Source of the DNA: Cryomorphaceae bacterium
Lineage (GTDB): Bacteria > Bacteroidota > Bacteroidia > Flavobacteriales > Schleiferiaceae
Reading direction: 5' to 3'
Length of the DNA stretch: 64,000 nucleotides
Assembly: GCA_011525035.1 (NCBI GenBank)
Contig: WTIZ01000060.1
Coordinates: 1-64,000 of the forward strand
The notes below the pieces were generated by a model. That model was not told the DNA's origin. It worked only from the letters and a program-made list of their open reading frames with translations, and did not search any database. The position numbers were made by a program, and so were the translations under genes. Shown here one piece after another: positions 21,956-27,302 of this stretch. Each line of letters begins with the position of its first letter. The first letter of the stretch is position 1.

Positions 21956-22024
21956 GCTTCGTAATTTGGAGGGTAAAGGTAAACCCGAATTTTAAACCAT
22001 AACAGAAGATAGCGTGTTGTGTTT

Positions 22025-22032
22025 TAACTTTG
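22025..22032 (+). promoter_or_regulatory. -7 element for paaABC
   Basis: TAACTTTG matches TAnnTTTG, 22 bp before the paaA ATG, in the 99-bp gap divergent from paaE. No PaaR/PaaX-type operator could be recognised by eye. Confidence 0.5.
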
Positions 22033-22054
22033 TAAGCAACCAAATACACAGAAA

Positions 22055-23011
22055 ATGGGAACCAACGTTTCTTTAGAGGACAAATTCCAGGCTTACGTCG
22101 ACGCTGAAAACAGGGTCGAGCCGAAGGACTGGATGCCTGAAAAGTACCGCAAAACCCTTATCCGCCAAATCTCTCAGCACGCACACAGTGAAATCATTGG
22201 TATGCAGCCTGAGGCCAATTGGATTACTCGTGCGCCATCGCTTCGTGCCAAGCTCATCTTGCTAGCAAAGGTTCAAGACGAAGCCGGCCACGGACTTTAC
22301 CTGTACTCTGCGGCCGAAACCTTGGGCGAGCCAAGAGAAAAAATGATTGCCGACCTACAGAGCGGCAAGGCGAAATACAGCTCTATTTTTAATTATCCTA
22401 CTCCATCATGGGCAGATATGGGCACCATTGGTTGGTTGGTTGATGGCGCGGCCATCCAAAACCAAGTGATGCTAACCAGAACCTCTTACGGTCCTTATGC
22501 ACGTGCCATGGTGAAGATTTGTAAGGAAGAAAGCTTCCACCAAAGACAAGGATATGAGGTCGTGATGAAATTGGCCCAAGGAACACCGGAACAAAAAGCA
22601 ATGGCTCAAGAAAGTTTGAACCGTTGGTGGTGGCCGTCACTCATGATGTTTGGTCCTTCTGACGACAATAGCCCAAATTCTGAGCAAAGCATGAAGTGGA
22701 AAATCAAGCGCAAGAGCAACGATACCCTTCGTCAAGAGTTCGTAGATAAAACGGTTCCGCAAGCAGAATATCTAGGCCTTACTATTCCTGATGCCGACTT
22801 AAAGTGGAACGAAGAACGTGGCCACTACGATTTCGGTGAAATTAACTGGGCTGAATTTTATGAGGTTATCAAGGGCAATGGCCCTTGCAACAAAGAGCGT
22901 ATTGCACATCATGTAAAGGCACACGAAGAAGGTGCTTGGGTTCGTGAAGCAGCAAACGCTTATGCTAAGAAGCAAGCAGATCGTGCCTCTAACGATGCTT
23001 CGGCCGCATAA
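22055..23011 (+). CDS. paaA: Phenylacetyl-CoA epoxidase catalytic subunit PaaA
   Basis: A 318-residue di-iron oxygenase alpha subunit. Carboxylate/histidine ligand motifs are visible as QDEAGH and KEESFH, an ExxH pair. [15 protein letters not shown] and [21 protein letters not shown] are highly characteristic of PaaA. With PaaC and PaaB it inserts oxygen into phenylacetyl-CoA to form the 1,2-epoxide, the first ring-attacking step of aerobic phenylacetate degradation. The Arg-rich ring-opening genes (paaZ, paaG, paaJ) are not in the window. Confidence 0.95.
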
Positions 23012-23029
23012 CCATTAACCGTTACCGCT

Positions 23030-23317
23030 ATGAGTGAATCTAACTGGAAGCTTTGGGAAGTTTTTCTCAGGAGTAAGAATGGACTGTCCCACAAACACGT
23101 AGGAAGCCTTCATGCTGCTGATGCCGAAATGGCTATAAAAAATGCACGAGATGTCTACACAAGGCGCTCCGAGGGTATTAGTATCTGGGTTGTTCCTTCA
23201 GAGGAAATAACCGCAAGTTCGCCCGACGAAAAAGACCCTCTGTTTACTCCGTCGGACGATAAGGTATACCGTCACCCCACCTTCTATGACATCCCTGATG
23301 ATGTCGAACACATGTAA
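23030..23317 (+). CDS. paaB: Phenylacetyl-CoA epoxidase subunit PaaB
   Basis: A 95-residue PaaB: WKLWEVFLRSKNGLSHKHVGS and AKNARDVYTRRSEG-type motifs (here AIKNARDVYTRRSEGISIW) are diagnostic. PaaB bridges the PaaAC dimers and is needed for activity in vivo. It follows paaA by 18 bp and precedes paaC by 3 bp, so the three genes form one operon. Confidence 0.94.
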   Translation: MSESNWKLWEVFLRSKNGLSHKHVGSLHAADAEMAIKNARDVYTRRSEGISIWVVPSEEITASSPDEKDPLFTPSDDKVYRHPTFYDIPDDVEHM

Positions 23318-23320
23318 GCC

Positions 23321-24112
23321 ATGGCAGGAGGTTGGTTAAACGGTGTCAAGCGCGACTTTACAAAAGACGAAGCGCTCAAAGAATACTTCTACTTTTTAGC
23401 AGACGATTCGCTCATCCTGGGGCAGCAGCTCAGCAAGTGGTGTTCAAACGGTCCTGTCTTAGAACAAGATATCGCCATCATTAATACCGCATTGGACCAT
23501 ATTGGCAGGGCTCGATTGCTCTACCAAGAATTGGCTCGGTTAGAGGGTGGTGATGCCACGGAAGATACCCTTGCTTACTTCCGCGATCATTTACAATTCA
23601 AAAACGCGTTGCTCGTTGAACAACCCAACGGTCACTGGGGCGATTCAGTAGTTCGCAGCTTTTTCATTGACACCTTTAACTTCTACTTATACGATGCGCT
23701 AAGGGGCTGCAAAAACGAGGCTCTTAGGGGAATCGCGGAGAAGGCTATTAAGGAGATTTCCTACCAAGCACAATGGAGTGCAGAATGGGTTGTACGCCTA
23801 GGGGACGGAACGGAAGAGAGCCACAACAAGGTTCAAAAAAGCGTAGACGATTTATGGATGTGGAGCGGTGAGTTGTTTGAAGACCACCCAGTGTTCGAAA
23901 TTCTTAAAGAAGAGCTGCCCTCGTTTGTCTCGTTCAAAGAGCAATGGATAAAGAAGGTGGCAGAAGTATTAAAAATGGCAACCCTCATCATGCCATCACC
24001 CGAACTGTGGATGCAGACCGGCGGCCGTTATGGTATTCACAGCGCACAGCTTGGCTACATTCTCGGTGAAATGCAAAGCTTGGCACGCACATATCCAGAC
24101 GCGACTTGGTAG
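23321..24112 (+). CDS. paaC: Phenylacetyl-CoA epoxidase structural subunit PaaC
   Basis: A 263-residue ferritin-like subunit. LADDSLILGQQLSKWCSNGPVLE and ALDHIGRARLLYQ near the N-terminus, with SYQAQWSAEWVVRLGDGTEES later, are typical of PaaC, which pairs with PaaA but lacks the active di-iron site. In many bacteria the next gene is paaD; here the operon ends and a convergent metal-transporter operon follows. A terminator for the operon may be the hairpin at 24237-24273. Confidence 0.94.
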   Translation: MAGGWLNGVKRDFTKDEALKEYFYFLADDSLILGQQLSKWCSNGPVLEQDIAIINTALDHIGRARLLYQELARLEGGDATEDTLAYFRDHLQFKNALLVEQPNGHWGDSVVRSFFIDTFNFYLYDALRGCKNEALRGIAEKAIKEISYQAQWSAEWVVRLGDGTEESHNKVQKSVDDLWMWSGELFEDHPVFEILKEELPSFVSFKEQWIKKVAEVLKMATLIMPSPELWMQTGGRYGIHSAQLGYILGEMQSLARTYPDATW

Positions 24113-24168
24113 TATAGAAACCTAGCGTTGTTGATTTCTTAACATTATTTAACCCTTCGGTTTATTTT

Positions 24169-24185
24169 TTGGCACGTGCTTTGCA
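24169..24185 (+). promoter_or_regulatory. Consensus sigma-54 (-24/-12) promoter
   Basis: TTGGCACG at 24169-24176, four bases, then TTGCA at 24181-24185 match the sigma-54 consensus TGGCACG-N4-TTGCW at every defined position. The -24 GG and -12 GC are 12 bp apart, as required. Transcription would begin near 24196 on the plus strand. It lies 57 bp after paaC with no plus-strand gene in front of it before a terminator. No activator gene (NtrC type) was seen nearby. Confidence 0.7.
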
Positions 24186-24195
24186 CTAACGTATA

Positions 24196-24273
24196 TGACG
24201 ATATAGTTATCGTACGTGTTTTTGTGTTAAGCGAGTGAGGGTTAAAGTGGGGACTTTAGCCCTCTTTTCTTTT
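24196..24273 (+). ncRNA. Candidate sigma-54-dependent small RNA (~78 nt)
   Basis: The unit runs from the predicted sigma-54 start to the end of the T-tract. It contains a perfect 6-bp 5' hairpin (ACGATA-TAGT-TATCGT, 24198-24213), an unpaired T/G-rich linker and a 12-bp terminator stem. No open reading frame is evident. The 3' part is antisense to the last codons of the convergent permease gene (stop at 24242). This is inferred from promoter plus terminator only; no known RNA family was recognised. Confidence 0.5.
24237..24273 (+). terminator. Intrinsic terminator (plus strand) in paaC-permease gap
   Basis: Stem GAGGGTTAAAGT / ACTTTAGCCCTC (12 bp, one U.G wobble on the plus strand) with loop GGGG is followed by TTTTCTTTT. 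The T-tract and the wobble orientation favour the plus strand. It could end paaABC, the candidate sRNA, or both. It overlaps the 3' end of the permease coding region. Confidence 0.85.
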
Positions 24274-25090
24274 GTAGAATAAAAGAAAGCACAAATAACA
24301 AGAAGCTTACGACCGCCATCGATCCGCTGATAGAGGCCTCCAATAGATCAGATACAAAGTACCCTCCTACAGCGCTCAACAACCCCTGAAGTACAATAAA
24401 AAGTACCATAAACCTCAGGTCTTTTGTGAGCAGGTATGCTGTTGCCGCAGGAACTACTAAAAATGCAATGACCAGAATAGCGCCTACACTTTCAAAGCTC
24501 ACCACGGTAGCCACTGAGGTAGCCGCCATTAATGCATAGTGCCAGAGGGTTGTTCTTATACCCACGCTTTTTGCGTATTCCGGATTGAAACTGGTGAGAA
24601 CCCACCCTTTGTAGCCAAGCCAAAAAACCGCTTGGGTAAAAATGAAAAGCACAGACAATGTCCATACAGCACTCGGAGCGCGAAGGCCAAATAGAGTGGT
24701 CTGTTGCAAGGGTACAAAAGCAAGCTCGCCGTGAAGCACACAATCGGCGTCAATATCTGCCTGTCCTGCGTATTTAGTGACCAAAATGACGCCTACTGCG
24801 AACAAGAAGGTGAATACCGTACCCATTGCTGCATCGCCCTGCATTTTTCCCTTAGAAGAAAAGAATTGGATCAAAAACGTAGTTAAAACCCCCATGATAA
24901 TCGCTCCTAATAACAAAGGAAGTGATGCACGAGATCCGCTGATTAAATAGGCAATAACTATTCCCGGCAGCACCGCATGAGAAAGGGCATCACCCATCAT
25001 GCTCATTTTACGCAACAACAAAAGATTCCCTAGCATTCCTGTAGAGGAGGCCACCAAAAAACCGGTTATGATTATCCAAATCGCATCCAT
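24242..25090 (-). CDS. Metal (Mn/Zn/Fe) ABC transporter permease, TroD-like
   Basis: A 282-residue ABC-3 family membrane protein with about eight hydrophobic segments. GMLGNLLLLRKMSMMGDALSHAVLPGIV is the diagnostic N-terminal region of ZnuB/MntB/TroC/TroD permeases. It would form the inner-membrane channel with the neighbouring permease, fed by the upstream binding protein. The metal cannot be told from sequence alone. It follows the fused permease with a 1-bp gap. Its 3' end lies in the plus-strand terminator hairpin. Confidence 0.9.
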   Translation of the reverse strand: MDAIWIIITGFLVASSTGMLGNLLLLRKMSMMGDALSHAVLPGIVIAYLISGSRASLPLLLGAIIMGVLTTFLIQFFSSKGKMQGDAAMGTVFTFLFAVGVILVTKYAGQADIDADCVLHGELAFVPLQQTTLFGLRAPSAVWTLSVLFIFTQAVFWLGYKGWVLTSFNPEYAKSVGIRTTLWHYALMAATSVATVVSFESVGAILVIAFLVVPAATAYLLTKDLRFMVLFIVLQGLLSAVGGYFVSDLLEASISGSMAVVSFLLFVLSFILQKKRGLKSPL

Positions 25091-25091
25091 A

Positions 25092-26396
25092 TTACACTAG
25101 ATCTGGATCTGGAATAATTTCATGAATCTCCAATAGCGGATTGAACCTCGAACACAGCCCTAACTCACGTAGAATTTCTTCTTCAATCTCTGGGGTTAAA
25201 AAGTGTTCCATGGTTTCCGCTTCATCGTGAACCAAATGAACGCTCATTTGCATTCGACGCTGGAGATATACCTCCCATATCTTGTGGCGGCGGTCAATGT
25301 CTGCACCGTAACTCCTACCCGCTGTACTCAAGGTAAATCCCCCATGAACGGGACGAATAAGTCCTTTGCTGCTTAAGCGGCCAACTGTTCTGTTCCAAAG
25401 GTTTGGTTCAAAAAACTGTCGTTGATTAATAGATTCACGAGTAAACAACTTGCCTTTGCCGCGCACTTCATTTTGAACCGCAGCCTTAAGAAGATTTTCT
25501 TCGTTAATTCTTCTGCGAAGCAACAGTTTGTTCCACCGCTGATAGACAATACCCTTGCGCGGTGCGAACAACATCGAAATGAAAGCTATAATACTTACGC
25601 TTACTATGGTCCATGGACCTGTAGGCATATTTGTTTGGGAATAGCTTACAAACGCCCCTATCCAACCTCCTAATGAACCGAAAACACCGCTGATAATAAG
25701 CATGGGAACCAATCGATCGGTCCAAAAGCGAGCTGCTGTCGGCGGTATGATCAAAAGCGCACTCATCATGACAATACCAACAGCCTTAATACCAACACTA
25801 ATGGTAAGTATGGTAATGATGCTTATAAGAGTGTCTATCTTCTTTCTACTAATACCAATGCTCTGGGCGTAATCAGAATTAAAAATAATGGCCTTGACAC
25901 TCCAATAGCTTGCTATGATTAATCCAAGAACTATTAGACTAACGCTTGCAAAAGCAATACTGTCCGCCGGTGTCATTGCCGCGGCATTTCCAAATATGTA
26001 GTGATCTAGCCCGCTTTGATTCCCAACATACCTTGATTGAATCATGGTGAGTAAGACAATACCTAAACCAAAGAAACTTGACAACACGATTGCAAGGGCA
26101 CTATCGCCTTTGATCTTACTTTGTTGTGTGATATAATCCACCACCCAGATACTCATCCAGCCACTGATGGCGGCTCCCAAAATCATCACTGCTGGATTCT
26201 TCACACCGCTTAAAAGAAAAGCAATTAACACACCAGGTAACATGCTGTGTGCAACAGTCTCTCCTACTAGCGTTTTCTTCCTTAGAAAATTAAAGCTACC
26301 CACAGTACCACTCATGCCTCCAAGAAGCACAATAGCGATGACCACATAACGAACGTTTGGGTCTTCTAAGCTGAGGTATTTGAGTAGTACGTCCAA
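25092..26396 (-). CDS. Metal ABC transporter permease fused to DtxR/MntR-like domain
   Basis: A 434-residue fusion. Residues 1-~285 are an ABC-3 permease (FLRKKTLVGETVAHSMLPGVL). Residues ~290-434 resemble a metalloregulator: a winged-helix-like part (FEPNLWNRTVGRLSSKGLI) and a dimerisation/metal part, VHLVHDEAETMEHFLTPEIE, that keeps the His/Glu/Glu/His pattern of MntR/DtxR metal sites. It may sense cytosolic metal and gate transport, or be a vestigial regulator. The start is TTG directly after the binding-protein stop (TAATTG); no ATG precedes residue 29. Confidence 0.85.
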   Translation of the reverse strand: MDVLLKYLSLEDPNVRYVVIAIVLLGGMSGTVGSFNFLRKKTLVGETVAHSMLPGVLIAFLLSGVKNPAVMILGAAISGWMSIWVVDYITQQSKIKGDSALAIVLSSFFGLGIVLLTMIQSRYVGNQSGLDHYIFGNAAAMTPADSIAFASVSLIVLGLIIASYWSVKAIIFNSDYAQSIGISRKKIDTLISIITILTISVGIKAVGIVMMSALLIIPPTAARFWTDRLVPMLIISGVFGSLGGWIGAFVSYSQTNMPTGPWTIVSVSIIAFISMLFAPRKGIVYQRWNKLLLRRRINEENLLKAAVQNEVRGKGKLFTRESINQRQFFEPNLWNRTVGRLSSKGLIRPVHGGFTLSTAGRSYGADIDRRHKIWEVYLQRRMQMSVHLVHDEAETMEHFLTPEIEEEILRELGLCSRFNPLLEIHEIIPDPDLV

Positions 26397-27302
26397 TTAT
26401 TTTAAGTATTCCGCAATGGTCTTAGCGTTAAAGATGAGCATTTTAAAATACGTGTTCTGATCTTCTTCGCTCCCTAAGCTATCGCTTAATAATTCGGGTC
26501 CAATTTTAACTTCAAACCCCTTTGACGCACAACCTCTTTGAACACTCTCCATAGCCTGAGGACTAATGATGTTTTCAAGAAAGATAGCAGGAACCTTCTG
26601 CTCAACGATAAAATCAACCAAATCTGTAATCTCTCGTAGACCAAACTCACTTACAGTACTAGCGCCTTGGAGAGTCTTAACTCGTAATCCATAATCCCGA
26701 GCAAAATAACTGAGTGCATCGTGTGTAGTAATAACCAATCGTTGCTCCTCTGGAATAGTGTTTACGATGTTATTTACCTCTGAAGCTACCGAATCCATCA
26801 CTGAAAAGTATTGGCCCATTTTTAACTCAATACCCGCTGCTTTGTCTGGATAATTTTGGAGCAATTCTCCTACAATAGTTTTAACTGAATTTTGTGCTAA
26901 TTCCTTATCAAACCACGCGTGCGGATCAGTCGATGCTGGGAAATTTGGATCGCGAATAATGAGCTCATTAGGAAAATTCTTAGCAGCATCAATAATAAGT
27001 TTATCCTCCATGTGCTCCAGCACTTCTATAATCTTCCCTTCTAAATGAAGTCCGTGGTAGATGATGACATCTGCCTCGCGCAGCAGGTCTAAATCCTTTT
27101 TTGAAGGTTTATACACGTGTGGATCAATACCTACTTTCAGTAGTGGAATAACTTCCATTTGATCAGTAGCAACATTGCTTACCCAATCCGTCATGATACT
27201 AGTAGTACAAACTACTTTGATTGTATCGTCCGCTGGCTCCACTGTCGGAGCAGCACAAGAAAATAGAACTAGTCCAGTAAGAAAGGAAAGGAGGTATCGC
27301 AT
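26397..27302 (-). CDS. Metal ABC transporter substrate-binding lipoprotein (ZnuA/TroA-like)
   Basis: A 301-residue cluster A-I binding protein. The lipobox is LVLFSC, so the protein is anchored on the periplasmic face. Expected metal ligands appear in DPHVYKPSKKD, DPHAWFD and THDALSYFARDYG, with an acidic LENIISPQ near the C-terminus. No long His-rich loop is present, which fits Mn or Fe slightly better than Zn, but this is weak. The ATG at 27302 is preferred over a TTG nine codons upstream because it gives a proper signal peptide. The next gene is the permease fusion, not the usual ATPase. Confidence 0.9.
   Translation of the reverse strand: MRYLLSFLTGLVLFSCAAPTVEPADDTIKVVCTTSIMTDWVSNVATDQMEVIPLLKVGIDPHVYKPSKKDLDLLREADVIIYHGLHLEGKIIEVLEHMEDKLIIDAAKNFPNELIIRDPNFPASTDPHAWFDKELAQNSVKTIVGELLQNYPDKAAGIELKMGQYFSVMDSVASEVNNIVNTIPEEQRLVITTHDALSYFARDYGLRVKTLQGASTVSEFGLREITDLVDFIVEQKVPAIFLENIISPQAMESVQRGCASKGFEVKIGPELLSDSLGSEEDQNTYFKMLIFNAKTIAEYLK

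Follow-up and report, generated by a model that had tools for sequence, protein, structure and literature searches.

A putative sigma-54-dependent small RNA conserved together with a complementary site in the 3'UTR of a type IX-secreted protein mRNA in a Bacteroidota genus

Comparative analysis of a 64,000-nucleotide stretch of a Schleiferiaceae genome (hereafter, the window) points to a small RNA (sRNA) gene between paaC and a convergent metal ABC transporter permease gene. The explanation that we consider probable is that this RNA is sigma-54-dependent, Hfq-independent and trans-acting, and that it pairs with nearly the whole 3'UTR of the mRNA of a type IX secretion (T9SS) cargo protein, lowering that mRNA via double-strand cleavage. 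In the genomes compared, the sRNA gene, its promoter, its terminator and the complementarity are conserved together, which supports this explanation; what we infer is that the RNA is made, that it pairs inside cells and that cleavage lowers the mRNA.

Promoter, RNA and terminator at the paaC locus

An earlier sequence-only reading of this locus had proposed a full -24/-12 promoter in the gap, and the element TTGGCACGTGCTTTGCA is present with GG at 24171-2 and GC at 24183-4, which is the standard GG-N10-GC spacing and places the predicted +1 at ~24196. The perfect 6-bp hairpin proposed for the predicted 5' end was likewise recovered. The proposed 12-bp, T-tailed terminator also exists, but its stem begins ~41 nt after the predicted start rather than ~60 nt. 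This terminator lies ~130 nt downstream of paaC and runs across the final codons and stop codon of the permease gene, so that the 3' part of the RNA is indeed antisense to the permease end. Folding of the 78-nt RNA yielded -27.3 kcal/mol (z = -4.6 versus shuffles), and the Rfam 15 models gave no matches in 22000-27000 at E up to 1. Further along, the minus strand at 25092-26396 encodes a metal ABC permease whose C-terminus carries a fused metal-binding/dimerisation domain of the iron-dependent-repressor type (PF00950 and PF02742).

Features of the locus in window coordinates
Feature	Position	Strand	Remarks
paaC	23321-24112	+	TIGR02158 above cut-off; upstream flank, synteny kept
TTAAC box	24139-24143	+	32 bp upstream of the -24 GG
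Sigma-54-type -24/-12 promoter TTGGCACGTGCTTTGCA	24169-24185	+	exact consensus
Predicted small RNA, ~77-78 nt	24196-24272	+	start from promoter, end from terminator
5' hairpin ACGATA-TAGT-TATCGT, 6 bp	24198-24213	+	
Target-pairing region TTTTGTGTTAAGCGAGTGAGG	24220-24240	+	complementary to the 3'UTR of the T9SS-cargo mRNA (in this genome: L072, G000:C48)
Intrinsic terminator, stem GAGGGTTAAAGT-GGGG-ACTTTAGCCCTC followed by TTTTCTTTTG	24237-24274 including T-rich tail; 12-bp stem 24237-24264	+	
Convergent metal ABC transporter permease	24242-25090	-	open reading frame, PF00950

The pattern TTGGCAC-N5-TTGC occurs at two sites in the 2.0-Mb genome, as does its reversed control, and with up to two mismatches the promoter motif has 116 genomic sites versus 135 for the control. 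As the motif is no commoner than the control, evidence from a single genome would by itself be weak. Promoters were compared in the 20 relatives whose upstream DNA was readable, with the -24 GG as anchor. All 20 share GGCA and TTTG at unchanged spacing, while neighboring positions vary; GG-N10-G is likewise universal, with GC (15), GT (4) or GG (1) as the -12 dinucleotide. A Bacteroidota sigma-A promoter (TAnnTTTG) was rejected, since the TA is missing yet GGCA and the N10 spacing are retained. Further upstream, a TTAAC box stands at -31 to -33 from the GG in 18 of the 20 relatives amid diverged adjacent sequence, the columns between it and the promoter elements reaching ~50% in the same alignment; the box, at this fixed spacing, is a candidate activator binding site. 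A second copy lies at 24149-24153; such a pair, spaced by 10 bp, occurs in four genomes, the present one among them.

The genome encodes rpoN (401 bits), for which the sequence-only reading had called, and 24 of the 25 genomes compared within the genus contain the gene, the one without it being 74% complete. At least one high-scoring sigma-54 activator was found in all 25, and most have two. The first activator of this genome (L141 1081-2244) combines a receiver with an AAA+ domain, with no DNA-binding domain detected; it lies beside what we take to be an MscS-like channel gene and recurs in most genomes of the genus. The second carries AAA+ with a Fis-type HTH and is directly followed by a presumably LptE-like gene. 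F. psychrophilum is listed as having an activator-LptE unit (PMC9723704). Hfq (PF17209) was found in none of the 25 genomes by a search that recovered it in five known control genomes.

A family-wide DNA search returned the region almost only from the same genus, with 24213-24271 often retained where the flanks were not; the named records with the core were mostly metagenome-assembled genomes of Schleiferiaceae, Cryomorphaceae or Flavobacteriales. The sRNA unit is conserved in 21 genomes of this one genus, with paaC upstream in every locus of sufficient length among the relatives compared, so that the suggested search of related genomes showed promoter and RNA to be conserved at the paaC 3' end. 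Of the two hairpins included in that suggestion, the terminator stem is found throughout, all 12 pairs being intact in every distinct sequence of the 21 loci, whereas the 5' hairpin is present in other clades but differs in sequence and form. The T-tail is kept alongside the promoter in the 20 relatives with a readable promoter, while the intervening sequence has diverged. Covariation in the terminator stem was weak by shuffle control and is hence not used as proof.

The alignment of the 21 loci contains an invariant stretch, TGTTTTTGTGTTAAG..AGTGAGGG. The unpaired segment 24218-24241 shows 99.2% mean pairwise identity across relatives, compared with 43-47% for neighboring stretches and 47% for the 5' part of the RNA. 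The permease stop occupies one of two positions (in 8 and 12 of 20 genomes), the gene ending before the upstream terminator arm in 12 of the 20, and the unpaired stretch lies outside it in all 20; the permease gene therefore cannot explain the conservation of the core. Peptide coding was also rejected upon inspection of the alignment, in which no conserved frame was visible and the stretch was equally invariant at all codon positions. Taken together, rpoN, the activators, and promoter, core and terminator conserved as a unit lend good support to the proposed sigma-54-dependent sRNA.

Among 398 genomes of the order, a covariance model found the RNA only in this genus, once per genome. Two matches elsewhere, one in G025 ahead of a tsf-like gene and one in G362, scored 33-34 bits; neither has the core or the promoter, and both were taken as chance. 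Exact-pattern matches in one Clostridia and one Bacteroidaceae contig were within chance, and viral contigs contained no exact core pattern.

A complementary site behind a T9SS-cargo gene

The first clue to a partner came from two of the weakest DNA matches, 20-nt exact matches in the opposite sense located just 3' of a stop codon. Searching with the complement CTCACTCGCTTAACACAAA at up to two mismatches recovered 10 genomes besides the sRNA loci, compared with none of 25 for the reversed control. At the nine loci read, a site of this type lies directly 3' of the stop codon of the same gene, and the tenth is consistent with this. The gene is convergent with an ABC-transporter ATPase gene at the loci read. 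Its 423-aa product carries a type IX sorting domain (PF18962, TIGR04183), and the structure model of this protein has a mean pLDDT of 57, with low confidence outside the C-terminal domain.

The target orthologue was readable in 21 genomes, and in the 20 other than G082 the site sits 0-2 nt past the stop codon, ahead of a terminator that itself differs between clades. Pairing runs reach 18-20 bp in two clades. The sRNA accompanies the site in 18 of these 20 genomes; in G065 and G085, whose assemblies are 77% and 72% complete, the site is present and the sRNA was not found. In the genome under study, the site (L072, contig C48) reads CCTTACTTGCTCAACACAAAA and forms 18 Watson-Crick and two G-U pairs with one mismatch in 21, and among 127,958 window positions only the locus of the sRNA itself equals it when G-U pairs are allowed. 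Predicted duplexes range from -27.6 to -36.9 kcal/mol over the 20 genomes (the sRNA of the present genome being used for G065 and G085). For the present genome this energy is unexceptional, several other window stretches scoring as low; duplex energy is thus non-discriminating, and the argument is built on contiguity and conservation.

Constraint is stronger on the sRNA core than on the target site, and the sites of G072 and G083 carry four mismatches in 21, which together suggest further partners. Most target changes that keep a G-U pair are C-to-T, also a common mutation, so that they are suggestive and inseparable from C-to-T bias. Two-sided compensatory changes of sRNA and target were not seen among the genomes compared, and the site is absent from orthologues outside the genus (~26-33% identity), where the RNA was not found either. 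A second recurring wobble match, CTTCACTCGCTTGATACAA, detected in five genomes, was discarded, being antisense to a coding frame at the four loci read.

Two further observations concern the surroundings of these sites. An ACCCA-like motif just 5' of the target terminator, outside the main duplex, is kept in most clades (e.g., L072). On the minus strand of the sRNA locus, 24220-24244 presents CCCTCACTCGCTTAACACAAA after the permease stop, as after the T9SS-cargo stop, and a longer permease transcript would carry this same site.

The sequence-only reading had asked whether relatives with conserved flanks lose the -24/-12 bases, which we observed in one genome only, G082. Here paaC, the permease gene and rpoN are present, while the syntenic -24 GG is gone, the core is altered and the terminator stem is broken; the target site is also the most degraded one, with six mismatches in 21. 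In a tree of the receiver-AAA+ activator, G082 is placed beside G067 among the carriers (support 87/82), which indicates that the loss is derived. The joint decay of the whole RNA and the target site supports their being a unit. The G082 target protein has diverged as well (40% identity), so that the site may have decayed for another reason.

Proposed action and competing explanations

Under the explanation that we prefer, sigma-54 RNA polymerase would transcribe 24196-24272 once an activator protein is switched on, and transcription would end at the sRNA's own terminator. The invariant middle of the RNA, 24220-24240, would then form a ~20-bp duplex with the short 3'UTR between stop and terminator, the long seed making Hfq dispensable. 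As the most likely effect, a double-strand RNase such as RNase III would cut this duplex beside the target terminator; cleavage would remove the protective 3' hairpin and lower the mRNA, and the secreted protein would be turned down while the sigma-54 signal is on. A stricter version, in which the sRNA is dedicated to this one mRNA, complements nearly its whole 3'UTR, acts from the 3' end and forms with that 3'UTR a coevolving pair that is lost together, is plausible, though we would not call it probable.

The same pairing might instead, as with GadY, protect the mRNA 3' end from exonucleases or set its processing and so raise the secreted protein, which we regard as possible but somewhat unlikely. 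The anatomy of sRNA and 3'UTR site fits this reading as well, and deletion of Rfp18 in Flavobacterium lowered two secreted-protease mRNAs (PMC9723704). However, the target mRNA already has a terminator hairpin at the site. Moreover, long RNA duplexes are typically substrates of double-strand RNases, which also speaks against protection.

The greater constraint on the core than on the UTR site would equally be expected if the 3'UTR were a sponge, an abundant mRNA soaking up an sRNA whose regulatory targets are other mRNAs. We consider this doubtful, as the patterns used retrieved no other conserved sites and the second recurring match is antisense to a coding frame.

Less likely still is the cis role first suggested, in which the RNA would serve chiefly as an antisense against the 3' end of the metal permease mRNA. 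The convergent overlap and conserved synteny agree with such a role, and a permease transcript extending beyond its stop would contain the full complement; yet the overlap varies with the two stop positions, the permease gene does not reach into the conserved unpaired stretch, and the site in the T9SS-cargo 3'UTR is left unexplained. The suggested link to metal uptake or phenylacetate use fared no better, having behind it synteny and a short terminator overlap whose extent varies between lineages.

Finally, it is highly improbable that there is no sRNA and that a chance promoter-like match precedes the terminator of the paa operon, since, whatever the control-like motif count and the proximity of the terminator to paaC, the promoter bases, their spacing and the pairing stretch are conserved genus-wide between diverged sequence, and the trans complementarity is conserved too.

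Relation to known sRNAs and significance

Like Qrr and GlmY/GlmZ of Proteobacteria, the present RNA appears to be an sRNA transcribed from a -24/-12 promoter that needs an activator protein; it differs from them in belonging to Bacteroidota, in having no Rfam match and no Hfq, and in the placement of its site in a 3'UTR. In E. coli, GadY pairs with the 3'UTR of the gadX mRNA, as predicted for the present RNA. GadY lies opposite its target gene, whereas in the genomes read the present RNA and its target are encoded on different contigs, and the site takes up most of what is a very short UTR. The nearest functional parallel is Rfp18 of Flavobacterium, another Flavobacteriales sRNA acting on secreted-protein mRNAs, whose predicted partners, contacted via one stem-loop, are several protease mRNAs and an adhesin (PMC9723704); the present RNA has instead a single long site that is conserved, and a predicted sigma-54 promoter. 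In Bacteroides thetaiotaomicron, sRNAs act without Hfq or ProQ, and extended seeds have been suggested for some of them (PMC7366714), which the long seed described here would fit; that paper does not mention RpoN/sigma54, while the present RNA has a predicted sigma-54 promoter.

As the sequence-only reading had supposed, no sigma-54-dependent sRNA of Bacteroidota was found in the open-access literature searched. If correct, our explanation would make this the first one described in the phylum, as judged from that literature, and would supply a specific target site along with it. It would illustrate how a Hfq-free lineage can attain specific pairing, through a seed of ~20 nt, provide a case of trans regulation via a 3'UTR, and link the sigma-54 regulon of the phylum, about which little is known, to a type IX-secreted protein. 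With the natural loss in G082 as a built-in control, a regulator and its likely target in an aquatic Bacteroidota genus can now be tested together.
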